Shown piece after piece: positions 15,458-30,270 of a stretch of 64,000 bases of DNA. Within the stretch, counting starts at the first letter, position 1. Each line of letters begins with the position of its first letter. Source of the stretch: Blautia coccoides (lineage in GTDB: Bacteria > Bacillota > Clostridia > Lachnospirales > Lachnospiraceae); NCBI RefSeq assembly GCF_034355335.1, contig NZ_CP136422.1, positions 2,886,501 to 2,950,500 of the forward strand, in the 5' to 3' direction. The position numbers and the translations under genes were made by a program. The notes beneath the pieces are model-generated. The model was not told the origin of the DNA. It searched no databases and saw only the letters and a program-made list of their open reading frames with translations.

Positions 15458-16318
15458 ATGTTTAAAATTACAGAAGGTGACTTTAAAAACCAGAAATACG
15501 GAGAGGAAAGCTATCTGTCAAATTGGCCAATGCTTTATATACTAGATAATGGTAAGCAAGCTTATATTGGAGAGTCTAACCATGTTAAAAACCGAATGTC
15601 TCAGCACCATGGTTCTTTGGATAAGAGGATTTTTGACAAGGTGCATTTTATTTATTCATCCAAATTTAATCAATCGGTTACGTTTGATTATGAGTCAAAA
15701 CTTATTCAGTATATTGTAGCAGATGAACTTTACGAAGTTCGTAATAAGAATGCCGGAATGGCTGAAAAAGAATATTATGGCAAAAAAGAATATGACGAAA
15801 AATTCCAAGTCCTCTGGAGAAGATTACAACGTGAAAAAATAGTAAAACATTCTCTGGAAGAATTGGAGAATTCTGATTTATTTAAGTATTCGCCGTATAA
15901 GGAGCTGAATAATGATCAAAGGACCGCTGTAGAAGAGATCATTACTTCACTAAAGCAAGATGAGAATCAGACAGTCATTGTAAATGGCTGGCCGGGAAGC
16001 GGAAAGACGATTGTTGCAATCTTTTTACTTAAGTATTTGCGGGACAGTGAAGAGTTTCAGGATAAAAAGATTGGTTTTGTTGTTCCGCAGACTTCTCTAA
16101 GAAAGACGCTAAAAGGAATTTTCAGGAGCATTTACGGACTCAAATCTTCGGATGTATTATCCCCATCGGATGTGACAAAACAATTTTATGACATTTTGCT
16201 TGTGGATGAAGCGCATAGACTGCACCAATATAAAAATATTTCATATATGGGTGCTTTTAAAAAGAACTGTGAAAAGATTGGATTGACAATAGAAAGTGAT
16301 GAATTAGCCTGCAAATAA
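15458..16318 (+). pseudogene. GIY-YIG nuclease / DUF2075 helicase, 5' part (interrupted by IS110)
   Basis: The first 283 residues of a gene split by an IS110 element. A GIY-YIG endonuclease domain opens the protein (LYILDNGKQAYIGES, residues about 27-41, with RMSQH). A DUF2075/Schlafen-like P-loop helicase core follows: Walker A NGWPGSGKT (about 178-186) and Walker B ILLVDEAHRL (about 247-256). Host sequence ends at the AG at 16306-16307; the last few codons to the stop at 16318 come from the element. Joining at this point to 17911 restores one continuous frame of about 527 residues. Such nuclease-helicase fusions occur in phage-defence islands. As it stands the gene is disrupted. Confidence 0.85.
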
Positions 16319-16424
16319 AAAGTCAAGGCTAAATTGAAGAACATTGAAAATTTTATACAGGTTGAAAATTAGGTATCAAAATAAGACCACCACACCAGTG
16401 CTGGTCTGAGAATTATAATGATGA

Positions 16425-17633
16425 TTAGGATTCTGGAAGAGATGAAAGATATTCTTTCACTCGTCCGTAATAGATTCTTAGAAACTTGTTGGCACCTGCA
16501 GTCATATAGACATAATAAGGCTTGCCTTGTGCCCGTTTCTTATCTATGAACTGATACACAGGATCATCCTGTGGGTGTGTTTTTATTAAGACATCCATTA
16601 CCTGAAATAAAGTCTTTCTAAGATCAGATGAGCCTCGTTTTGAAGTTGGAACACTTTTTTGTTCATAACTTCCCGATTCATTAACACCGGGATCTACACC
16701 GGCAAAAGCAGTAATAGCACCTTTATGGGTAAAACGGGAAACATCACCAATCTCAGCCATCAATTGAGGACCAAGCGAAGCACCAACCCCTTTCATCGCC
16801 ATAACAATAGGATACTCTGGGAGTTTGGATGCAGTTTCATTCATAAGTGTGCGTAGTGATTCAACGGTTGTAGAAGCACTGTTAAGCTGGTTTACAGCCT
16901 GCTTGATAATAAGCTTTGTAATGTCATCCTTAGGAAGTACAGGAACAAGTTCCTTTGCTTTTCCATAGATTTCCTCAGCTTTGGATTGGCTGAAGTTGTA
17001 CTTCTTACGTTTGCACCAGTTTTGATAATGGTCGATAAAGGCATTCAGAGACATTTTACGGACACAGTCCACATGCCAGTATGTAGATGCAAAATCAACC
17101 CATTTCTGGCTGCCGTCACTGCGTGCAGGACTGTCAAAGTAAGTATTAACACCAGGATAGGTTTGGTCAAGGATGCCGATAAGATTATTTTTCATAGCCG
17201 TCTTGTGCTTCATGTAAAAGCCGAACTGACGGTTCATGGTTTTGAGCTGATTGCGTAATTCATCCATAACATTATACTGTTTAAGATTTTGCCATTTGTC
17301 AAGAGCATATCGGGCAATCTTAACAGCATCCGCTTTATCAGATTTCACTTTACGAAGAGAATCATTATCAAAGTCTTTGATAAGTTTTGGGTTAATGGCA
17401 CTGACGAAAAGATTTGCCTTTGAAAGCTGATGGGCGAGGACTTCATAATAACGTCCTGTGTGCTCCATCACGATTCGGGACTCCCCTTCAACAGAGTTGA
17501 TGAGTTCTACAAGTGAATGGATATCACTGGCTGTGTGTTTGATTTCGAAAGGTGCGGAAACAATTTCACCGAAAGGTCGCATGATAGCAACCATACTCTT
17601 ACCTTTTGAAACATCGATACCTACTGCGTTCAT
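16425..17633 (-). CDS. IS110-family transposase (RNA-guided serine/DEDD recombinase)
   Basis: A 402-residue recombinase. The N-terminal RuvC-like DEDD domain starts GIDVSKGKS, and continues with MEHTGRYYE and KSDKADAVKIARYA. The C-terminal Tnp20 domain has MAMKGVGASLGPQLMAEIG and AFAGVDPGVNESG, and the serine-bearing segment SVPTSKRGSSDLRK. In this family the protein works as a tetramer with a bridge RNA that pairs with target and donor DNA. A CTTAAGGAGTG site lies just upstream of the ATG. No internal stop is seen, so the enzyme should be active. Its insertion has broken the GIY-YIG/DUF2075 gene. Confidence 0.96.
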   Translation of the reverse strand: MNAVGIDVSKGKSMVAIMRPFGEIVSAPFEIKHTASDIHSLVELINSVEGESRIVMEHTGRYYEVLAHQLSKANLFVSAINPKLIKDFDNDSLRKVKSDKADAVKIARYALDKWQNLKQYNVMDELRNQLKTMNRQFGFYMKHKTAMKNNLIGILDQTYPGVNTYFDSPARSDGSQKWVDFASTYWHVDCVRKMSLNAFIDHYQNWCKRKKYNFSQSKAEEIYGKAKELVPVLPKDDITKLIIKQAVNQLNSASTTVESLRTLMNETASKLPEYPIVMAMKGVGASLGPQLMAEIGDVSRFTHKGAITAFAGVDPGVNESGSYEQKSVPTSKRGSSDLRKTLFQVMDVLIKTHPQDDPVYQFIDKKRAQGKPYYVYMTAGANKFLRIYYGRVKEYLSSLPES

Positions 17634-17664
17634 AAATTGTCACTCCTTAAGATTATTGCAATGG

Positions 17665-17828
17665 ATAAATACCAGTTTTACTCATTGCCTATTCAATCTA
17701 CTGTGGTGTGACGCGAATGCACCTATGGCGATTCAACCTGCATAAAACGAACGCTGCGAATGAGGAGCTGGTTATCAGTCTAATTTACGGACGCGAAGTC
17801 CAAGATTGGAAGACGATATACCGATTGC
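17665..17828 (-). ncRNA. IS110 bridge RNA (target- and donor-guide RNA)
   Basis: Read 5' to 3' on the minus strand. A TATAAT at window 17840-17835 gives a start near 17828. The target loop is closed by GGT(A)TATC with GATAACC. It holds left guide TCCAATCT (17810-17803), hairpin GGAC/GTCC (17801-17789) and right guide AATTAGA (17785-17779). In transposase orientation the pre-insertion host site is TCCAAT-CT-AATTC: the left guide equals its left half plus core, and the right guide is complementary to TCTAATT. The donor loop, closed by ACCAG/CTGGT and CTCATT/AATGAG, holds TGCAGGTT (17742-17735; right end is TGCAGG-CT, one mismatch) and AGTAG (17702-17698; complementary to CT-ACT at the left end). 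RNA ends are approximate. Confidence 0.82.
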
Positions 17829-17910
17829 TCCATCATTATACAGCTTAAGCAACAAGATGGATAATTCCTTACTGGCTGTAAGGGATATTAACCATAAACA
17901 TATTGTAGTA

Positions 17911-18645
17911 GATTGGATACTTCATCAATGTAAATGCCCTGTACTGTTTTATGATGAGATGCAGGTGGTTGGCCCGTCCGGAATTGATGTGAGTAGATTT
18001 CATAAGAAGATGGAAATTGAACAGGCTAAACGTATGATAACTTACTATAATTTATTTACACAGATGCGGGTAAATGGCGGCAATGATTATATTGAATATG
18101 TGAAAAATATTTTGTCAGGAACAGTCAGAGAAAAGAAAAACTTTGAAAATTATGAATTTAGGTTGATGACGGATTTTAAGGCATTTAATGATCTGATGTA
18201 CCAAAAGGAAGAAGAGGTGCAGCTTGTAAGAATGGTGGCTGGATATGCCTGGGAGTGGATCAGTAAGAACGATAAAACCGTTTTTGATATTGAAATTCAG
18301 GGCATAAAGAAACAATGGAATCATTGCACGGAGGGCTGGGTCCATTCAAAAGAAGCAATTAACGAGGTGGGATGTATTCATTCTACGCAGGGTTATGATT
18401 TGAATTATGCCTTTATCATTCTGGGCGATGAAATCGGATATGACCCGGTCAAGAAAAAAATAATGATCCGGCCTGAAAACTATTATGATCAAAACGGTAA
18501 AAAGACAGTAGGGTATGAAGAACTTAAGGAATACATACAGCACATATATTATGTTCTTATGACCAGAGGAATACGAGGGTCTTATTTATATGTATGTGAC
18601 CAGGAGTTACGAAAATATATTTCACAGTATGTAGATACAGTATAA
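17911..18645 (+). pseudogene. GIY-YIG nuclease / DUF2075 helicase, 3' part
   Basis: The remaining 244 residues of the interrupted gene. It starts with DWILHQCKCPVLFYDEMQ, a motif that directly follows the Walker B region in DUF2075 proteins. It also has a glutamine/glycine motif STQGYDLNYAFIILG and the C-terminal arginine motif YVLMTRGIRGSYLYV, both typical of superfamily 1 helicase cores. An open frame extends upstream to 17806, but that part is IS110 sequence. Without a start of its own this half is probably silent, unless transcribed from the IS. MazG follows after 21 bases, so both once belonged to one operon. Confidence 0.8.
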
Positions 18646-20846: not shown

Positions 20847-21443
20847 GTGAGCCATACATTAGATTATTATAATCATAACGCGGCTTCTTACGTAGAAAAC
20901 ACCAGACAGGCAGATATACATCTACTGCAGGAAAAGTTTCTTGCATTGCTGAATGAAGGGAATACCATTCTGGATTTTGGCTGTGGGTCAGGACGAGATA
21001 CAAAGTATTTTCTTGAGAAAGGATATTGTGTTATTGCAACGGATGGATCGGAGGAGTGCGTTCGATTGGCCCGCGCATACACAGGAATAGAAGTGCGTGA
21101 GATGCTGTTTCAGGAGTTGAGGGATATGCAGACATATGACGGAATCTGGGCCTGTTCCTCGATTCTGCATTTGCCAAAAGAGGAATTGTTATCGGTCTTT
21201 CAAAAAATGTGCAATGCATTGAAAATGTCCGGTGTGATTTATACATCCTTTAAATACGGTAGGTTTGAAGGAGAGAGAAATGGCAGGTTTTTTACAGATT
21301 TTACAGAAGAATCGTTTCGAAATTTCATCAAAGAAGTTCCGGGTCTGATTGTGGAAGAGTACTGGATTACCGGTGATGTAAGACCTGAAAGGGGTGAAGA
21401 GAAATGGCTCAATATCATACTTCGAAAGAAGGATATTCGCTGA
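20847..21443 (+). CDS. Class I SAM-dependent methyltransferase (TehB-like)
   Basis: A 198-residue Rossmann-fold methyltransferase. Motif I is ILDFGCGSGRDTKYFLEKG, motif II ends VIATDGSEE, and the following acidic/aromatic segment WACSSILHLP stands where motif IV lies. It resembles tellurite-resistance and small-molecule methyltransferases rather than DNA methyltransferases, since no NPPY or PC motif is visible. The start is GTG at 20847 with AGGAGGAG upstream. Its end overlaps the next (HNH) gene by 40 bases, so the two are translationally coupled and probably work together. Confidence 0.88.
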   Translation: MSHTLDYYNHNAASYVENTRQADIHLLQEKFLALLNEGNTILDFGCGSGRDTKYFLEKGYCVIATDGSEECVRLARAYTGIEVREMLFQELRDMQTYDGIWACSSILHLPKEELLSVFQKMCNALKMSGVIYTSFKYGRFEGERNGRFFTDFTEESFRNFIKEVPGLIVEEYWITGDVRPERGEEKWLNIILRKKDIR

Positions 21444-22612
21444 TTCTTGAGGGAGAATATCATAATACACTGGATATAGAAGGATTTTCTCAGATGATGA
21501 AAGATCCATCCTATTGCTATAAATTCTATTGGCTGGAAGCCATTGTAGATCTTATCTCAGAAGGAATACAGAATACAACCTTTGACGCAATTATTGATGA
21601 AATGATCTGCAATGCATGGTATTCGGTACGGGAATACCATATTCATTTAAGCGGCTTACTAGCAGACGGAGTGGTAAGAGATGGTCTGGAGAAGGTGATT
21701 TTGCGGTTGACGGAGCTGAGCGGCCTTTCTGCCAATGCTTCTAAAGTTGAAATTAAGAATGAGATTACAAAATACAATCAGGAGTTAAAGGAATGTAAGG
21801 AACAGCTCACCAATATGGTTCCGGGGCGTGCCCTGGCAGGATTTTTTGCAAAGAGCCATGAAGAAGTACCGTGGGGAAGTATTCGCAGACTGACAGAATA
21901 CATTCGCCGTATAGACAGCACACTGACCCGGCTTCCCTATATCTTCGGAGACAGCAGTAAGTTGAAAAAAGAAGTCTATTTCAATGAGGAATGGATGCGG
22001 ATGATTCAGGATAATACGGTAAACATACTAGGGTGGATCCAGTTCGAAAAGGTAAAATGGCTGCAGAACAATAATCCAGAAGTCCCGGGCCTGATCTATA
22101 AGCTGGCGCCAATGGATGAGAAGGTGCGTAAGCTGAGCCGTGTCCGCAGACTCTGGGAAGGGATCCTGGATATTCGAGAGGTGAGAGATGTATTCACCGA
22201 TCGCCCAATCGCTGCAAAAAAGTACGATGTAGATCATTTTATCCCATGGTCTTTTGTAATGAATGATGAGCTGTGGAACCTGATGCCGATGGAATCTTCT
22301 CTAAATTCAGTAAAAAGCAATAAGCTGCCCAAATGGGATCCATTCTTTGGAGTGTTTTGGGAAAATCAATATCTGATGTACCAGGTGATTCAGGAAAAGG
22401 AAGAACTGCATAAGAGATTTGAAGCATGTTACCGGGATAATCTACATTCTATCTGGGCGGGACAGGAGTTGTACCGGCCGGGGAATACAAGAGAAGAGTT
22501 CTGTAATATCCTGTGGAAAAATATGCGGCCGGTTTATGATTCGGCAAGACGGCAGGGGTATGAGGTTTGGGATTATATTTGCCATGGCGAGCGAGTCGGC
22601 GTTGGCGCATAA
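21404..22612 (+). CDS. HNH endonuclease-domain protein
   Basis: A 402-residue protein. The first 260 residues are a helical region with no family I recognise. The C-terminal part carries an HNH nuclease motif: KKYDVDHFIPWSFVMND (about residues 270-286) followed by WNLMPMESSLNSVKSNKLP, where the Asp-His pair, the Asn and the later Asn/Lys fit the ββα-metal fold. The start at 21404 lies inside the methyltransferase gene and has a GGGGTGAAGAG site. A methyltransferase overlapping an HNH nuclease suggests a modification-restriction or self-immunity pair, but the methyltransferase is not an obvious DNA enzyme. Confidence 0.82.
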   Translation: MAQYHTSKEGYSLILEGEYHNTLDIEGFSQMMKDPSYCYKFYWLEAIVDLISEGIQNTTFDAIIDEMICNAWYSVREYHIHLSGLLADGVVRDGLEKVILRLTELSGLSANASKVEIKNEITKYNQELKECKEQLTNMVPGRALAGFFAKSHEEVPWGSIRRLTEYIRRIDSTLTRLPYIFGDSSKLKKEVYFNEEWMRMIQDNTVNILGWIQFEKVKWLQNNNPEVPGLIYKLAPMDEKVRKLSRVRRLWEGILDIREVRDVFTDRPIAAKKYDVDHFIPWSFVMNDELWNLMPMESSLNSVKSNKLPKWDPFFGVFWENQYLMYQVIQEKEELHKRFEACYRDNLHSIWAGQELYRPGNTREEFCNILWKNMRPVYDSARRQGYEVWDYICHGERVGVGA

Positions 22613-22659
22613 TGCAGAATTATCGCAGTAAAATGGGGCAATTTGTGTCAGAGGAAAAT

Positions 22660-22866
22660 CAACAAGTGTAAAAAATAAGTTTGATTCTGCCAGAGTATTA
22701 TGGTGGGTTAATGCAGATAATGAAAAGCATACCCTAAATTATCTACGTGTAGATTCGATGTTGGATTCACATCAAGAAGACTCGTGATGATGATGAATTT
22801 ATTGATAAAGCATATCCTAAGGGATTAGATATGTCAGATGAATTTGAAATGTGTGACTCCAAATGA
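22660..22866 (+). pseudogene. Frameshifted remnant ending at the mcrB start
   Basis: Two short frames look like one decayed gene: FDSARVLWWVNADNEKHTL then, in a second frame, KKTRDDDEFIDKAYPKG ending at the TGA at 22864-22866. That stop overlaps the first ATG of mcrB as ATGA, the arrangement of a translationally coupled upstream gene. No family is recognised. Confidence 0.4.
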
Positions 22867-25800
22867 CAATGGAAGAATGGTTCTTCTTTGTAAAGGAGCA
22901 ATACCCAGAGGTGATAAAGAAGATGCAAAAAATAGATATAGATTATACAGGTGTGTTGGATTACTTGGCTAATAACCAGGAAGTTCCATACTCAAATCCG
23001 GAAGCACCTAGTTTAGCACAGGATGTTAAGGCTAAACTGTTAAAGGTTAAGGAAAAAGGACAAGCGGCAGCTGCAGAAATGAAAAAGATTGCAGCACGTT
23101 GCGAGGAATTATATGGCCTTGATAAGTGCTTACCTATTGCATGGTTGGATGGTTCAAATACAAAAACGAGAAAGTATCTCTGGGCACAGATGAAATATAA
23201 GGATTATGCAGCTAATCCTACTAGCGTATCTTTATTCGTTGAGAAAAACGGTGATGCGGCCAGATATCGCATCAGTTTGGAAATAAAGAATGATGGTACT
23301 GATAAGAAGACAATGGCTATTTACCATTCTCATTTGGATATTCCGAAGGAAGATGGAATGATATATGTGTCTGGTAGTAATGAATGGGGGAACCCAGATG
23401 TTATTACAGAAACAGTAGACAAGATCAAAAAGAAGATTGATTCTGGAGAAATACGAAAAGTTCAGCTTTGTATTTATGTTGAATCGTCAGCAGATAAAAC
23501 AAATGAACAGTATGATGCTGATGTGATGGACGCAGTAAAAAGGATTATTCCATATTACGAGCATGTTATTGGAAAAACATTAAAGATGCCAGCAACAGGA
23601 CGAGCATGGCTTTTGACATGGAATCCTGCAAGTTGGTATTGGGCGGATTATAAAGAGTGGTGTGCAGATACAAAACTTGGTAATAAACACACAGAACCTT
23701 GGACTTGTTCCAGCAAGCAGCCAGCGGTAGGCGATGAGATTTTCTTAATTAAGACTGGTGCTAAGCCTAGAGGTATTCTTGCTCATGGATACGTATCGAA
23801 GGAAGCCTATGAATCTGATCACTATGATCCAGCAAAAGTGGCACAGGGTGTTAAGTCAAATCATATTGATGCAGAATACGATTGGATTCAGGACTACAAC
23901 TCAGAACCAATGTTAATGCAGGATGACTTAAAAGATAAACTTCCAGATCAGCAATGGAGTCCGATGGGATCTGGTATTGAAATTAAATCAAGCGTCTTAC
24001 CAGAACTGAAAAAGATGTGGCTTGAGCTTATTGGAAAGAAAGCAGACGAAGTAACATATTGGCCTAGTTTAGAAGAATATGATCCAGGTATCACAAAAGA
24101 AAGATGGACCGAGTTATTAAGTGATTCTGAGGTTGCCGCTGTGGAGAATCTTGGAATGTTTAAGATGATGCTTGAATTAGGTGGTGAATCTACTTGTGCG
24201 AACTTGGCTGAAACATACGGAGGTACCGCAGGTTTTTATAACGGCTTAGGCAGAGCATTTAGTGAAAGAGTGCATAAAAAGACAGAATGTCCATTATACG
24301 TTGATGAAGATCGCGAGCGTTATTACACAATACCGTTTGTAGGTAGAAACGTTATAGAAAAAGGGAAAACAAGATATTCATGGAAGTTTAGAACTGAGCT
24401 AAAGGAGGCGTTGAAAGAGATGGACTTATCCTCAATAGACATTGAAAAGAAAAAAGACGTGACCACAGAATTTGATAAGAACATAATTCTCTATGGCCCT
24501 CCTGGAACTGGAAAGACATATAATACTGCTATTTATGCAGTTGCTATTTGTACAGGTAGAACTATTTCGGATGTTGCAAGCGAACCATACAGTCATATCA
24601 TGGATACATACGATAGATTGAAGAAAGAAAATAGGGTGGCCTTTACCACTTTCCATCAGTCATATGGATATGAGGAATTCATCGAAGGAATAAAACCAGT
24701 TGTAGATCAAACAAAGAACGAAATTGGGTATACAGTAGAACCAGGTGTTTTCAAGAAATTCTGTGATGATGCAAGGTCAATTGATAGTAATGAAACTGGC
24801 ACATTAATAAATGCTCATGCTCAGATTTGGAAGTTAACAATTATGAGCGGGGAGATGAATCAGATAAAGCAGGAATGCTTCAAGGAAGGAAATGCCAGAA
24901 TGGGATTCGATTATGATGCTCCAGATGCTAGAGCTTTCGTTGAAGATGTGGCACTTGGTGATATTATTCTGTCATTTAAAACTAGAAAGACAATTGATGG
25001 CATTGGTGTTGTAACTGGTGAAATTGAAGAGTTGACTACAAAGGATACTTATCAACTTTCTCGTAAAGTAACTTGGCTTGCAATAAATATCGATGAGGAT
25101 ATAACAAACATTAATGCAGATAAACTTCTTCATAGAATGACATTTGCAAAAGTACCTAATATGCAGTTGAAGGATATTCTTGAAGTGGCAAAGAAGTATT
25201 CTTTAAGTGATAATACAACAGAGGTTGTAGAAAACGTAAAACCATATGTTTTTATTATTGATGAAATTAACAGAGGTAATATTTCAAAAATATTCGGTGA
25301 GCTTATCACGTTAATTGAGGGAACGAAGCGTGCTGGTATGCAGGAAACAACCTCTGCTATACTTCCTTATTCTGGTGAGCCATTCAGTGTTCCATCTAAT
25401 GTATATATTCTTGGAACAATGAATACTGCAGACCGTTCAATTGCATTGATGGATACAGCGCTTCGCAGAAGATTCCAGTTTGTTGAAATGATGCCAGATG
25501 CAAATGTTCTTAGGGATATCGGCGCTGATTTTGTAGAGGATATTGATGTAGCTGCAATGCTTGAGAAGATCAATGAGAGAATTACCTTCCTATACGACAG
25601 AGAACATACAATAGGTCATGCATTCTTTACAAAGCTTGCAGGCAATAATGATTTAGTAACTTTGAAATCTATCTTTGAAAAATCAGTAATTCCTTTACTT
25701 CAGGAATACTTTTATGAAGACTACCAGAAGATTCAATTGGTTCTTGGAGATAATGGAAAAACTGACCCTTCAACAAAGTTCATTCTTGATGAAGTGGTAA

Positions 25801-25916
25801 AGGTAAAAAATATATTCAAGGGTAATGCAGATGACGTGGTTGATCTGCCAGAAAAGAAATACACCATCAATACAGAAGCATTTGGTAACCTTGAAAGCTA
25901 TAAGCAGATTATTTAA
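22863..25916 (+). CDS. mcrB: McrB-type GTPase with two EVE-like modules (type IV restriction)
   Basis: A 1017-residue motor of a modification-dependent restriction system. Order of parts: an N-terminal DUF3578/MrcB-type domain (1-190; LPIAWLDGSNTKTRKYLWAQ); a first PUA/EVE-like domain (about 243-400; RAWLLTWNPASWYWADYKEW, GDEIFLIKTGAKPRGILAHG); a winged-helix-like stretch (435-510); and the AAA+ GTPase with Walker A GPPGTGKT (about 545), Walker B VFIIDEINRGNISKIFGELI (about 796) and the McrB signature LGTMNTADRS (about 849). Between Walker A and B sits a second EVE-like domain (about 650-765; GDIILSFKTRKTIDGIGVV). EVE domains can read modified bases. There is no strong ribosome site; translation may be coupled to the upstream remnant. 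mcrC follows after 14 bases. Confidence 0.93.
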   Translation: MTMEEWFFFVKEQYPEVIKKMQKIDIDYTGVLDYLANNQEVPYSNPEAPSLAQDVKAKLLKVKEKGQAAAAEMKKIAARCEELYGLDKCLPIAWLDGSNTKTRKYLWAQMKYKDYAANPTSVSLFVEKNGDAARYRISLEIKNDGTDKKTMAIYHSHLDIPKEDGMIYVSGSNEWGNPDVITETVDKIKKKIDSGEIRKVQLCIYVESSADKTNEQYDADVMDAVKRIIPYYEHVIGKTLKMPATGRAWLLTWNPASWYWADYKEWCADTKLGNKHTEPWTCSSKQPAVGDEIFLIKTGAKPRGILAHGYVSKEAYESDHYDPAKVAQGVKSNHIDAEYDWIQDYNSEPMLMQDDLKDKLPDQQWSPMGSGIEIKSSVLPELKKMWLELIGKKADEVTYWPSLEEYDPGITKERWTELLSDSEVAAVENLGMFKMMLELGGESTCANLAETYGGTAGFYNGLGRAFSERVHKKTECPLYVDEDRERYYTIPFVGRNVIEKGKTRYSWKFRTELKEALKEMDLSSIDIEKKKDVTTEFDKNIILYGPPGTGKTYNTAIYAVAICTGRTISDVASEPYSHIMDTYDRLKKENRVAFTTFHQSYGYEEFIEGIKPVVDQTKNEIGYTVEPGVFKKFCDDARSIDSNETGTLINAHAQIWKLTIMSGEMNQIKQECFKEGNARMGFDYDAPDARAFVEDVALGDIILSFKTRKTIDGIGVVTGEIEELTTKDTYQLSRKVTWLAINIDEDITNINADKLLHRMTFAKVPNMQLKDILEVAKKYSLSDNTTEVVENVKPYVFIIDEINRGNISKIFGELITLIEGTKRAGMQETTSAILPYSGEPFSVPSNVYILGTMNTADRSIALMDTALRRRFQFVEMMPDANVLRDIGADFVEDIDVAAMLEKINERITFLYDREHTIGHAFFTKLAGNNDLVTLKSIFEKSVIPLLQEYFYEDYQKIQLVLGDNGKTDPSTKFILDEVVKVKNIFKGNADDVVDLPEKKYTINTEAFGNLESYKQII

Positions 25917-25930
25917 AGCGTGGTGAGAAA

Positions 25931-27289
25931 ATGGATAAATTGCTAGAGGTGAGAGAGTTCGATACGATTACCGGAAACGCTGACTTTAAAAGTGATGAAA
26001 AATATAAATATCTTGATACAGCAGCTTTTCATGACCTTGTAGAATTTATCCATGAATTCTCAGGAGATGAAGAAAATGCTGATGCATTGGATTTCATGCG
26101 CATCTCTTATAAACGTAATGTTGGTGATGTTGTAACCATTAAGAATTATGTTGGCTTGATTCAAATGAGGAATGGATATCAAGTACAAGTGCTTCCAAAG
26201 ATCAGTTTTGATTCTGTTGATGATACAGGAAACAAAGATACAAAAAGAGTATTCCTAAAAATGCTAAAAAGCATGAAAGATTTTCCAAGTAAGGTGTTTA
26301 ATGATGCGAGTCTAAAAGTGGATCGCATGAATCTCTATGAGATTTTTATTAACATGTATCTTCAGGAAGTAAGGCAGTTGGTAAAGCGTGGAATTAAGTC
26401 TGCGTATGTTAGACAGGAGGATAATCTGAAATTTTATAAAGGAAAGCTTTTGACTAGTCAGCATATAAAAACGAATATGACACATAAAGAAAGATTCTAT
26501 GCTGCCTATGATGAGTTTCATCCAAATAGACCAGAGAATAAATTGGTTAAAGCGACATTGCTTAAATTGCAGCAATTAACCACAAGTGCAGAAAATTCAA
26601 AAGAGATCAGACAACTTTTAACCGCATTTGGAATGGTGGAACCTTCAACAAATCATATGAAGGAATTTTCCCAGATAAAAATAGATAGAAATACAAAAGA
26701 CTATGAGATGTTAATGCAATGGTCAAAGATATTTCTGATGAATAAATCATTTACAACATTCTCCGGTAAGAATACATCTAGAGCGCTTCTTTTCCCGATG
26801 GAGAGTGTGTATGAAAGTTACGTTGCACAGCAGATGAAGAAGGTTTTAGGACTGGCGGGATGGGAGGTTTCAAGTCAGGACAAGGGTTACTACTTGTTTA
26901 CGGAACCGAGACGTCAGTTTGCGCTTAGACCAGATATCGTTTGTAAACGTGGTGATAGAACGGTCATCATGGATACAAAATGGAAAAGTCTTATCAGTAG
27001 CGAACGTGCTAACTATGGTATCTCTCAGAGTGACATGTATCAGATGTATGCTTACTCAAAGAAATATGAAACATCAGAGATTTGGCTTCTTTATCCGTTA
27101 AACGATGAAATGCGCGGACATTCAGAGATTAAATTTGAATCTGGTGATGGAACAACAGTGAGATTACATTTTGTCGATGTTGCTCATATTGAAGAAACGC
27201 TGGAAGAATTGAAAAAGAAACTGGAGGTGACTGAGTATGAAAATAGAAGAAAAAGTAACAGAGGTCATCAACGACTATGTCAGCTCTAA
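25931..27289 (+). CDS. mcrC: McrC nuclease subunit (type IV restriction)
   Basis: The 452-residue partner of McrB. It carries a PD-(D/E)xK nuclease domain near the C-terminus: RPDIVCKRG (about 334) and VIMDTKWK (about 346-353). The N-terminal half has the McrC-typical strand region GLIQMRNGYQVQVLPKISF, which binds and stimulates McrB hexamers. In known systems McrC cleaves DNA carrying modified cytosines after GTP-driven translocation. A GTGGTGAG site lies before the ATG. Its last 53 bases overlap the next gene in another frame, so at least three genes are read as one operon. Confidence 0.93.
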   Translation: MDKLLEVREFDTITGNADFKSDEKYKYLDTAAFHDLVEFIHEFSGDEENADALDFMRISYKRNVGDVVTIKNYVGLIQMRNGYQVQVLPKISFDSVDDTGNKDTKRVFLKMLKSMKDFPSKVFNDASLKVDRMNLYEIFINMYLQEVRQLVKRGIKSAYVRQEDNLKFYKGKLLTSQHIKTNMTHKERFYAAYDEFHPNRPENKLVKATLLKLQQLTTSAENSKEIRQLLTAFGMVEPSTNHMKEFSQIKIDRNTKDYEMLMQWSKIFLMNKSFTTFSGKNTSRALLFPMESVYESYVAQQMKKVLGLAGWEVSSQDKGYYLFTEPRRQFALRPDIVCKRGDRTVIMDTKWKSLISSERANYGISQSDMYQMYAYSKKYETSEIWLLYPLNDEMRGHSEIKFESGDGTTVRLHFVDVAHIEETLEELKKKLEVTEYENRRKSNRGHQRLCQL

Positions 27290-27905
27290 TGGAACATCGT
27301 CTGAAATGAATCGAGAACAGCTGTACCAATTAGTAACAGCGAATTATCCGATGAATAAGAACAGTTTTTTACCAGCTGATTATTGCTATAACAGAACTAA
27401 TGAAGGTATTGATTTCGAGAAGCATGTTCATCTTTTTGCAAGAACTGATGAAGGTAACTATCTCATTTTAGGAGAAGATTATTCTTATTCTGGGCCTGTG
27501 TATTATAGGAGAAGAGGAGAAACTGAAGATAGTGTTTGCGGCATTTGGACCAATGGCGTATATGAAGCAGGTATACCAATTGCTGGTACAACGGAATTGC
27601 GTTTGAATGATTTGTTGAGTGGGGTGAAAACAGCTCTTAAAACAATTCCTGTTACAGTAGCTACATCTGGAAAAGCCGTTCTAGTTCGTTTTCAGGAGCT
27701 GTTTGTTTGCGGGGTAAATGTTGAGGAGGAAGTTTACAAAATCTATAGTGTTACTTCCGATTGGGTGGATTGTACATCATATCATTGTGATTCTGCTGAA
27801 GATGGAACTTGGTACTACTACCTAGAAACAATAGATGAATGTATTGGTGAGGTACAACGACTTGTAATGTTCGTGGCACAGAAGAACAACATACAAGTGA
27901 ATTAA
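27237..27905 (+). CDS. Unknown protein encoded overlapping mcrC
   Basis: A 222-residue soluble protein I do not recognise with confidence. Its N-terminal part contains YQLVTANYPMNKNSFLPADY and CYNRTNEGIDFEKHVHLF, resembling short domains of unknown function appended to nuclease and restriction genes. It then has a beta-rich middle (YLILGEDYSYSGPVYYRR) and an acidic C-terminal half with four cysteines but no spaced metal motif. No catalytic motif is evident. The start at 27237 lies 53 bases inside mcrC, with CTGGAGGTGA upstream, so synthesis is tied to McrC. Position suggests an accessory or specificity factor of the McrBC system. Confidence 0.75.
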   Translation: MKIEEKVTEVINDYVSSNGTSSEMNREQLYQLVTANYPMNKNSFLPADYCYNRTNEGIDFEKHVHLFARTDEGNYLILGEDYSYSGPVYYRRRGETEDSVCGIWTNGVYEAGIPIAGTTELRLNDLLSGVKTALKTIPVTVATSGKAVLVRFQELFVCGVNVEEEVYKIYSVTSDWVDCTSYHCDSAEDGTWYYYLETIDECIGEVQRLVMFVAQKNNIQVN

Positions 27906-27992
27906 GCCGAATGGTAACAGATGAGGTATTTGAAAAAGCATATGCACATTTCATTGAGAATGTTGATGCTGAATATACAAAGATGATGGCTG

Positions 27993-28181
27993 ATGCAAAG
28001 AATAAAGAAACCTGTATATGTTGCGCTGGTTATACCAAAGCTAGAACCTAAGTCTTTGGTAGTGATACCGACAAATATTGTAGGTAAACAGGCGAAGTTT
28101 AAGTCACTTGGTGTTGGCGCGATTACGGCTATTAAAGGTACTTCAATTGAGGTGGTGTTTGAAAATGGATTATGTGCGTAA
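27993..28181 (+). CDS. Small Tudor/SH3-like ORF, probably frameshifted
   Basis: A 62-residue frame whose second half, LGVGAITAIKGTSIEVVFENG, resembles the Tudor/SH3-like beta-barrel found at the end of UvrD/PcrA helicases. A separate frame from the ATG at 27911 (MVTDEVFEKAYAHFIENVD, then EYTKMMADAKNK) has a protein-like sequence and overlaps it. Removing one base near 28005-28010 would fuse both into a protein of about 90 residues. Either a real frameshift, a sequencing error or programmed slippage is possible. The 3' end overlaps the helicase start by 17 bases. Confidence 0.5.
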   Translation: MQRIKKPVYVALVIPKLEPKSLVVIPTNIVGKQAKFKSLGVGAITAIKGTSIEVVFENGLCA

Positions 28182-30270
28182 AACAGTATTTGAGCTATTA
28201 GAAATAAATACTCATCAAAGGGTTGTAGATTTTATCAGAGAACTCATTAAACATTCTGAAAAGAGATTGATAATTCAGGATAGTGTTCTTTGGGATTTGG
28301 TACAAACGTATTATAAAAATCAGCGAGTAACCTATGCTGCGAACACATCTGATGAAAAGAAAAAGGTAATGTCTTGGATAGACTGCCTGGAGTTTTTACA
28401 GAGATTTTTTGCTGGAAAATCGGAACTGTATGGTGTGAAATTATGCTTTGAGTATCATACACCAGATAATGCCTGGTTTGATGTTGTTGTTCTAGATAAT
28501 AATAGAATCACGATTCTTGAGTTTAAGAGTGGTGAAAGTACAAATGAAGATAATTTAAGCGACTATGAGGAACAACTTGATGCATACTGTAATAAAATGT
28601 CGCATGCAAATGTAAGAGTATGGCAGCAATTTGAAAAAGGTCTTCAAGCAAGAGGCTTTCTGGTATATACAAGTGAGAAAATGAAAAACATAGGTTTTCA
28701 AGAAAAAATAGTTAAGGTCTGTGAAGAATTTGCTGAGGTTGTTGATGGCTTGAGCGGAACTATGGATGACGTTTTGGAAACAGCCGTGATGAATTTTGAT
28801 CCTGATCTTGATTCATCAACTCTAAGTGCTTTTATAAATGTTTTAGATGAAAAAGTGCTTGATGGAATTTATATTCCCGATATTTGCAAAGATAGATGTA
28901 TAGATATCATCGATGAAGACAAAGATGCTCAAGTCAAGAACATTTCTGTTCCAAAAGTTAATATCATCTTTGTTAATGGAAAACCAGGTTCTGGAAAAAC
29001 TGGTGTTGCATTATCGCTTGTTTCTGAATATTGCAAACGAAGGAAAGATGGAAAATCATCGAAGCGAATAAGATACGCGACAGGGAATGGTAATTTATAT
29101 TCCTTGTTTAATCAAGCTGCTAAGAACAAGAAAACGGCTGGAACAACGGCATTTGTTTTTTCGAGAATACGAGAACTATATAAGATAGATGACATTATCA
29201 ATAATCCGTCAGGCCATTTAGAGTACCGTGCAAAAACAAAAGAGGATATTATTATAATTGATGAAGCGCAGCGTATGTGGTCTTCAGAGAAAATAGCCTT
29301 TGATCATAGCTCTAAAAAGGTCGGGGATCAGTATATTAACACGTACCACTATGACCGAAGAACCGTTTTAGCTAATGGGTTGTCTGAACCCGTAATGGTA
29401 CTTAGAGATATTTATAAAGGGGCGTTAGAAAGTAATAAAACAAAAACAGTGCTTTTTCTAATTGGTAATGGACAAGAAATCTATACTGGGGAGGAACTCG
29501 GAGAAGATCAAATTGTTCAGGCCATTGATGTAGTGAGCAAGTTATTTGAGAATAAAGTAATTACAAGAGTTTACTCTTCGAAACAATATGAAGCTCTTGG
29601 TGCAAATATTCAAGATAGCTCAGAAGAAAACAGGGGGCTATTCTTACATTCTGAAAAAAGGAACAAGATGTGCTGTGAAGCAGGTGCCATGGTTGATGCT
29701 CTTTTAAATAATGAAAAAATTACAACATCAGGAAACATTCCATTTGTAGTATTAGGTACGAAGAAAGACTTAAATACTAAATACTTCTCTATTAAAAAAG
29801 CTGACCCGAAAGCAAAGCAAAGACTTTTTATTGATTCATATGATCAGAAAGATATTTGCACGTATTTCGAGACTCCAAAGGTAGCAATAAAAAACACACA
29901 ATTGTTTGATTTTTTCATGAATGACTTAGGAGCGAAAATGGACTACTTTGCAACAGAGTTTAATGCACAAGGTCTAGAAACTGACTATGTATATTTTGTT
30001 TGGGGTAGAAGAATTAAAAGAATTGATAATGGCTGGGACGTTAATACCAGAAATGCGGGGCAGATATATTACTATTACAAAGAGATAGAAGAATTTAGAA
30101 GAGCTAATCCGGATCTAAATATCAAAGCGCATAACATTAATGAAGAAATACATAAGATGATCATTAATGCTTTTAGAGTTTTACTGACAAGAGCACAGAA
30201 AAAGACATTTATTTATGTGGAGGATGAAGTTACGCGTAAATATTTGTTGAATTATTTTTCGGGAAAATAA
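28165..30270 (+). CDS. PD-(D/E)xK nuclease - DUF2075 helicase fusion
   Basis: A 701-residue protein starting at the ATG at 28165; the longer open frame from 28108 runs through the preceding ORF. Residues about 90-125 look like a PD-(D/E)xK nuclease core (WFDVVVLDN, then ITILEFKSGE). A DUF2075 superfamily-1-like helicase follows: Walker A NGKPGSGKT (about 270), Walker B IIIIDEAQRM (about 361), LGTKKD and the C-terminal arginine motif FRVLLTRAQKKTFIYV. It overlaps the small Tudor-like ORF and ends the mcrB-mcrC operon. Its N-terminal nuclease is not the GIY-YIG type of the island's other DUF2075 protein. Likely a defence effector or processing helicase. Confidence 0.85.
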   Translation: MDYVRKTVFELLEINTHQRVVDFIRELIKHSEKRLIIQDSVLWDLVQTYYKNQRVTYAANTSDEKKKVMSWIDCLEFLQRFFAGKSELYGVKLCFEYHTPDNAWFDVVVLDNNRITILEFKSGESTNEDNLSDYEEQLDAYCNKMSHANVRVWQQFEKGLQARGFLVYTSEKMKNIGFQEKIVKVCEEFAEVVDGLSGTMDDVLETAVMNFDPDLDSSTLSAFINVLDEKVLDGIYIPDICKDRCIDIIDEDKDAQVKNISVPKVNIIFVNGKPGSGKTGVALSLVSEYCKRRKDGKSSKRIRYATGNGNLYSLFNQAAKNKKTAGTTAFVFSRIRELYKIDDIINNPSGHLEYRAKTKEDIIIIDEAQRMWSSEKIAFDHSSKKVGDQYINTYHYDRRTVLANGLSEPVMVLRDIYKGALESNKTKTVLFLIGNGQEIYTGEELGEDQIVQAIDVVSKLFENKVITRVYSSKQYEALGANIQDSSEENRGLFLHSEKRNKMCCEAGAMVDALLNNEKITTSGNIPFVVLGTKKDLNTKYFSIKKADPKAKQRLFIDSYDQKDICTYFETPKVAIKNTQLFDFFMNDLGAKMDYFATEFNAQGLETDYVYFVWGRRIKRIDNGWDVNTRNAGQIYYYYKEIEEFRRANPDLNIKAHNINEEIHKMIINAFRVLLTRAQKKTFIYVEDEVTRKYLLNYFSGK

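Follow-up and report, generated by a model that had tools for sequence, protein, structure and literature searches.

A predicted bridge-RNA insertion sequence of the IS110 group in Blautia coccoides and the anti-Shine-Dalgarno-like left guides of its relatives

The insertion and the gene that it interrupts

Within the genome of Blautia coccoides (assembly GCF_034355335.1), a stretch of 64,000 nucleotides of contig NZ_CP136422.1 (positions 2,886,501 to 2,950,500; hereafter the window) carries a gene for a GIY-YIG and Schlafen-group-3 helicase protein that is split by an insertion sequence of the IS110 group (Table 1). The targeting of such elements by a bridge RNA is already established, as described in the available portions of two reports (PMC11208160; PMC11187229), and the window copy itself is a further IS110 member. 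What is new is found among its relatives, in which the left target guide is mostly similar to the 3' end of 16S rRNA, its anti-Shine-Dalgarno tail, and insertion is often in front of genes.

A preliminary description, made from the sequence alone, had claimed an IS110 element, and the features of the group that can be tested in sequence were all found. The recombinase contains both the DEDD_Tnp_IS110 and the Transposase_20 domain with the DEDD and serine residues aligned, and it scores 194.7 bits against NCBIfam NF033542 (cut-off 140). In an alignment to IS621 and ISCro4, its residues D7, E57, D99, D102 and S331 correspond to the DEDD and serine active site of IS621, for which D11, E60, D102, D105 and S241 are given as required active-site residues in the part of PMC11208158 available. 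The longer noncoding stretch lies upstream of the recombinase gene (276 against 117 nt), as in the IS110 group, and the guides are located in this left end (LE) and not in a long right end (RE), where an IS1111-type guide RNA would be expected. The host genome (6.10 Mb, a single contig) contains five identical copies of the element and one relative of 63% identity. The window element is a complete IS110-group insertion sequence that was probably active recently.

The preliminary description had further predicted that deletion of the element together with one core dinucleotide would rejoin the interrupted gene in frame (DEL-DWIL), and this was borne out by homologues. A search with the 3' part of the gene against 98 genomes yielded nine loci other than the host's own. 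Seven of these nine (L148-L154, from genomes of the family) align to both window flanks with a single dinucleotide at the core position and hence with no duplication beyond the core; the dinucleotide is AG, or CT in the sense of the element, in two, GG in four and TG in one. Six of the seven were translated and read DELDWIL or DELDWVL, and the exact target, AATTAGATTGGA, is present only in L148 (genome G005), the nearest of them. The remaining two loci, L155 and L156, permitted no alignment. Because seven homologous loci are uninterrupted, intact copies of the GIY-YIG/helicase gene do exist, and the look for an empty site in relatives thus recovered the gene with the predicted join.

Table 1. 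Features of the element and of the interrupted gene (positions in the window)
Feature	Position	Strand	Remarks
Interrupted gene (GIY-YIG + Schlafen-group-3 helicase)	15458..18645	plus	pieces 15458-16318 and 17806-18645
IS110-group element	16308..17909	minus	1602 bp without core
Core dinucleotide AG (minus strand CT), RE side	16306..16307		
Core dinucleotide AG (minus strand CT), LE side	17910..17911		
IS110 recombinase, 402 aa	16425..17633	minus	Pfam PF01548 + PF02371; NCBIfam NF033542
Left end (LE), 276 nt, noncoding	17634..17909	minus	encodes predicted bridge RNA
Right end (RE), 117 nt, noncoding	16308..16424	minus	terminates in TTTGCAGG
-35-like box TTGACT in RE	16321..16326	minus	
-10-like box TACAAT in LE	17902..17907	minus	meets RE -35 box only in circular form
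5' stem-loop CCTTAC/GTAAGG	17867..17883	minus	both-side changes in 4/6 pairs
Target-binding loop (predicted)	17770..17822	minus	closed by GGTATATC/GATAACC; both-side changes in 4/7 pairs
Stem arms GGTATATC / GATAACC	17822-17815 / 17776-17770		
Left target guide TCCAATCT	17803..17810	minus	
Right target guide AATTAGA	17779..17785	minus	full stretch TAAATTAG used in counts
Donor-binding loop (predicted)	17681..17764	minus	closed by CTCATT/AATGAG; apical hairpin 17715-17734
Stem arms CTCATT / AATGAG	17764-17759 / 17686-17681		
Left donor guide TGCAGGTT	17735..17742	minus	RE end TGCAGG-CT matched except T for C at first core base
Right donor guide AGTAG	17698..17702	minus	complements core + LE CT-ACT
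Stem arms ACCAG / CTGGT	17772-17768 / 17675-17671		

Agreement between guides and insertion sites

The guide strings proposed in the preliminary description, along with a GGAC/GTCC hairpin and the stem strings, were all located where it had placed them. The donor guides agree with the element's own right and left ends except for one U where the donor has C, and they are nearly invariant among the aligned relatives. In all 61 aligned relatives this U occupies the first core position of the left donor guide, where it would form a U-G pair with the bottom strand, the donor core being CT.

The target guides cover the insertion site. For scoring the host's own copies the guide was written as TCCAAT-CT-AATTTA (14 positions); the occupied window site matches at 13 of these, a score reached by none of the 7464 CT-centred sites in the window flanks. 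The window copy combines a diverged left guide, TCCAATCT, with a near-perfect target match at a site within a gene. Across the five identical copies the sites match at 13, 12, 11, 10 and 5 positions, and the numbers of flank sites scoring as high are 0, 0, 4, 30 and 4665, respectively. The expectation that identical copies share a guide-like target therefore stands for four of the five, which match in register, and not for copy L005 (G000:C1:2431160-2432775), which matches 7 of 8 left-guide bases after a slide of 2 nt.

Relatives comprised the best 80 of 218 from a scan of named genomes, plus new copies from further genomes; 55 of the 80 come from genomes that are Lachnospiraceae by name. The left end is present in the available stretch for 76 of the 80, the exceptions being L070, L071, L073 and L080. 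After L067 (no readable guide), L017 (only 3 nt of flank) and L111 (one hit a false left end, the other a duplicate) had been left out, 93 distinct sites had a readable left guide, and 72 of these also had eight letters of right flank. The left flank matches its guide at a mean of 5.19 of seven non-core positions, against 3.69 (sd 0.11) when guides are permuted among the 93 sites, and the right flank at 4.24 of six, against 2.31 (sd 0.12) among the 72; none of 2000 permutations reached the observed value in either test. The left match is strong across the five bases nearest the core and weak further out. The agreement persists within subsets: at the 27 sites with TCCTTTCT in common as left guide the right match is still 4.07 (2.60 permuted), and where the left guide is a different one (30 sites) the left match is 5.40 (2.84 permuted). 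The target core is CT at 91 of 93 sites on the LE side and at 79 of 79 on the RE side. Two elements with close transposases, L013 and L016, differ in their left guides (TTCCTTTCT and AATTAATCT) and match their own flanks at 8/9 and 9/9 bases. Target guides, in short, agree with the flanks and vary with them, as one would expect if the bridge-RNA guides read the target as the preliminary description had it.

Some elements depart from this register. The best left-guide fit lies 2 nt off in L005, L014 (8/8) and L022 (7/8), and 1 nt off in L031, L044 and L142. The left-guide core is CC in L012, L032, L044, L047, L074, L133, L137 and L142 and GC in L081, while the right-guide core stays AG; in L142 and L044 the left guide could extend one base into the hairpin.

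The predicted bridge RNA and its promoter

The two-loop design claimed for the RNA is supported by compensatory changes in several stems. Among 61 aligned left ends, 98.5% of cells are paired over the 31 pairs of five helices, against 28-39% in slid controls, and changes on both sides occur in 14 of the 31 pairs. These include 5 of 8 pairs in the apical hairpin of the donor loop and 1 of 4 in the inner hairpin of the target loop; the closing stem of the donor loop, CTCATT/AATGAG, is conserved, with both-side changes in 0 of 6 pairs. The enclosing stems named in the preliminary description are present as strings, although those formed by GATAACC and ACCAG share bases and so could not form together; the ACCAG/CTGGT stem, with both-side changes in 2 of 5 pairs, overlaps the stem of the target loop. 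RNAalifold also proposes a long outer stem (columns 36-45 with 214-223), nearly invariant, that competes with the stem of the donor loop. Folding of the single strand did not reach significance (z -1.0, with 31 of 200 shuffles as good), so covariation is needed to argue for structure, and a scan of the window at Rfam gathering thresholds gave no match to a bridge-RNA family.

The preliminary description had taken a TATAAT box to be the promoter of the RNA. A consensus scan found no sigma-70 partner for this box on the minus strand, and it was dropped as a promoter; its conservation among relatives may reflect a structural role. A predicted promoter instead spans the junction of the right and left ends, with the pattern TTGAC/T - TACAAT in all 78 elements for which both ends are available (spacing 17 in 77 and 16 in one), and reads TTGACT-17-TACAAT across the joined ends of the window copy. 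Because this promoter spans the junction, the RNA probably begins upstream of where it had been placed, and the arrangement suggests a start near position 15 of the left end that would include the 5' stem-loop.

Anti-Shine-Dalgarno left guides and insertion in front of genes

The mature 16S rRNA of Bacillus subtilis ends in GAUCACCUCCUUUCU, with an optimal distance of 15-21 nt from the tail end to the start codon, according to the portion of PMC5732282 available; this tail was used because the host's own 16S gene was not recovered by a family search. The commonest left guide, TCCTTTCT, which accounts for 22 of 66 distinct guide pairs, equals the end of that tail, and the recombination core falls on its last two bases. 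Over 65 transposase rows, the guide agrees with the tail before CU at 6 of 6 bases in 32, at 5 of 6 in 14 and at fewer in 19, and some guides ending in CCTC-CT resemble the tail at a CU further in. The left target guide of most relatives examined thus resembles the anti-Shine-Dalgarno (anti-SD) tail, a pattern that the preliminary description, otherwise supported in its IS110 and bridge-RNA interpretation, had not seen. A single tree of the 65 transposases requires at least 48 changes in the right guide and 19 in the left (four core-adjacent bases each), so that the left guide looks held and the right guide freer. The host's 63%-identity relative, L006 (G000:C1:1579344-1580756), adjoins AGGAGGAG ahead of an ATG, and its guide region before the conserved hairpin, AGTTCTCCT, is anti-SD-like; this case was read by eye and stands outside the counts.

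Insertion sites were scored as resembling a ribosome-binding site (RBS) if an ATG-started open reading frame (ORF) reading outward began 13-20 nt from the LE edge and ran for at least 60 codons, or for at least 30 if open to the end of the stretch; start codons were taken from ORFs and not from annotation. Flanks of at least 150 nt were available at 99 distinct sites (duplicate and shorter flanks left out); 49 of these passed, against 5897 of 149856 background positions (3.9%), and on the RE side of the element only 1 of 62 did so. A Shine-Dalgarno (SD) word, defined as any of six purine 5-mers, is present at 71 of the 99 sites, compared with 4.9% of the background. The outcome varies with the guide, as 39 of 62 sites with anti-SD guides passed but only 4 of 28 with other guides (Fisher P 2.5e-5); an earlier and slightly different split had given 40/67 and 3/23. 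Nine sites at which no left guide could be read, six of which pass, were left out of the 62 and 28. Thirty downstream ORFs of at least 200 aa were listed, and eight of the ten tested have Pfam domains, including those of transporters, solute-binding proteins and radical SAM proteins.

Interpretation and alternatives

These observations make it very probable that the window holds a bridge-RNA insertion sequence of the IS110 group, recently active, whose relatives mostly bear an anti-SD-like left guide and often enter ribosome-binding sites. Support comes from the sequence, the uninterrupted homologues and the agreement of guides and targets; the circle, the RNA and the chemistry we infer by homology. 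On excision, the ends would be joined as RE-core-LE, forming the promoter from which the left end would be transcribed into a bridge RNA in which a 5' stem-loop is followed by the target-binding and donor-binding loops. By way of the donor loop the recombinase would hold the junction, and by way of the target loop it would pick a CT-centred site; junction and target would then be recombined without duplication beyond the core. In the relatives the left guide would offer an anti-SD register, chiefly CCUUU-CU and less often CCUC-CU, both ending in the CU core, that pairs with the DNA strand bearing the Shine-Dalgarno sequence of a gene. Such pairing would bring the element into the RBS with its left end towards the gene, leaving the SD sequence and start codon in place, while the right guide would read the variable, often AT-rich, upstream DNA and change often. 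It is also rather likely, though with less assurance, that a lineage of IS110 elements in gut Clostridia has come to use a copy of the anti-SD tail as its guide, with the core at the terminal CU, the left guide being held by selection for a universal target and mostly the right guide being retuned.

Three other explanations deserve consideration. If the protein read the target, the guide-like strings would be conserved noncoding DNA whose likeness to the flanks is due to chance or common descent. The left end is indeed strongly conserved overall, yet the guide segments are its variable part and vary with the flanks, and the close transposases L013 and L016 differ in both guide and flank; the permutations led us to set aside matching that is due to the protein or to chance, and we regard it as scarcely credible. 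Another explanation holds that the SD bias arose not from the guide but from selection after insertion, by which intergenic sites survive, or from purine-rich DNA in general. What speaks for it is that insertion sites with an SD word are RBS-like in 48 of 71 cases, whereas for SD words elsewhere in the flanks the figure is 189 of 2067; the SD word cannot account for all of the enrichment, and the right guide, selection or both would have to contribute. The scarcity of RBS-like sites among elements with other guides and on the RE side speaks against this explanation, and it is unlikely. The 3' end of the 16S rRNA gene might also once have been the true target, with SD sequences hit through their complementarity to the tail, and the sequence of the guide is indeed that of the tail, with the strand sense also the same. 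Right guides vary, as would not be expected of a single fixed rDNA flank, and CACCTCCTTTCT was not found within 200 nt in any of the 99 flanks, so by this test, subject to rRNA operons possibly missing from draft assemblies, the sites are not rDNA insertions; two flanks resemble the 14-nt 16S tail with up to two mismatches. An rDNA origin is accordingly very improbable.

Several points weigh against the favoured interpretation. Own copy L005 is out of step by 2 nt, and no empty site for it was found in the 20 genomes of the genus searched, the host's own included; Durrant et al. describe off-target sites that apparently tolerate insertions within the target (PMC11208160, in the portion available). 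More generally, 11 of 91 sites fit the guide better after sliding by 1-3 nt, and the left-guide core is CC in eight elements and GC in one despite CT target cores at nearly all sites. The two outermost of the seven left positions match at 0.43 and 0.60, against 0.30 and 0.56 when permuted. A full match to the tail is seen in only 32 of 65 guides, and those below five of six include the guide of the window. The RBS test is not passed by 50 of the 99 sites, which include four of the five own copies. The SD pattern was spotted in the same sites in which it was later tested, apart from 22 of the 99 extracted afterwards (some of these loci having been fetched earlier), of which 15 pass. Finally, the elements are related by descent and the counts non-independent, which makes P values over elements too small.

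If the SD reading is true, a translation signal that is universal, and not a repeat or one particular locus, can determine where an IS110 element inserts. The element would respond to the signal that the ribosome reads and would find many gene-adjacent sites in any host that uses SD sequences; this could be part of the reason why such elements spread from host to host, and the genes behind them could change in expression. The guides suggest convergence of a transposon guide RNA on the sequence with which the ribosome itself recognises start sites. Literature searches, judged by titles and the openings of abstracts and with subscription journals and preprints outside their reach, returned nothing recognisable as IS110 or bridge-RNA targeting of SD sites, and SD targeting is not mentioned in the available portions of PMC11208160 or PMC11187229. 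The copies and relatives also form a natural data set on bridge-RNA target choice and its tolerance, in which an unchanged guide is met at five sites and guide and target can be compared in 93 pairs.

Other features of the window

A ZMP/ZTP riboswitch (Rfam RF01750, 62.5 bits) lies at positions 565-644 of the plus strand, upstream of a 750-aa ORF at 737-2989. A possible defence-type cluster occupies 20847-30270 of the plus strand, where PADLOC matches to mad2, REase_II and PDC-S41 are weak to moderate.

Relation to known systems

Among solved structures, the recombinase matches best the transposase of ISCro4 (PDB 9t56), from which it differs by about 80 extra residues between the two matched domains. 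The closest comparison in mechanism is with IS621 of Escherichia coli, also of the IS110 group, as described in the available portions of PMC11208160 and PMC11208158. Shared features are the DEDD and serine recombinase, the CT core, the promoter at the RE-LE junction and a two-loop RNA, here predicted, that is encoded in the left end upstream of the gene and has four guides including the core. The differences lie in the length of the recombinase (402 against 326 aa), in the left donor guide, with its U opposite the first base of the core, and in the left match, which here is strong only over about five bases before the core, whereas the core of the IS621 target is at positions 8-9. The sites also differ, being often ribosome-binding sites in the relatives of the window element and repetitive extragenic palindromic (REP) elements for IS621. 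RNA-guided target choice is likewise shared with the seekRNA of IS1111 and IS110 elements, and the upstream noncoding region is the longer one in IS110 members, as it is here; IS1111 elements differ in having the noncoding region downstream of the gene and subterminal inverted repeats (PMC11187229, in the part available).

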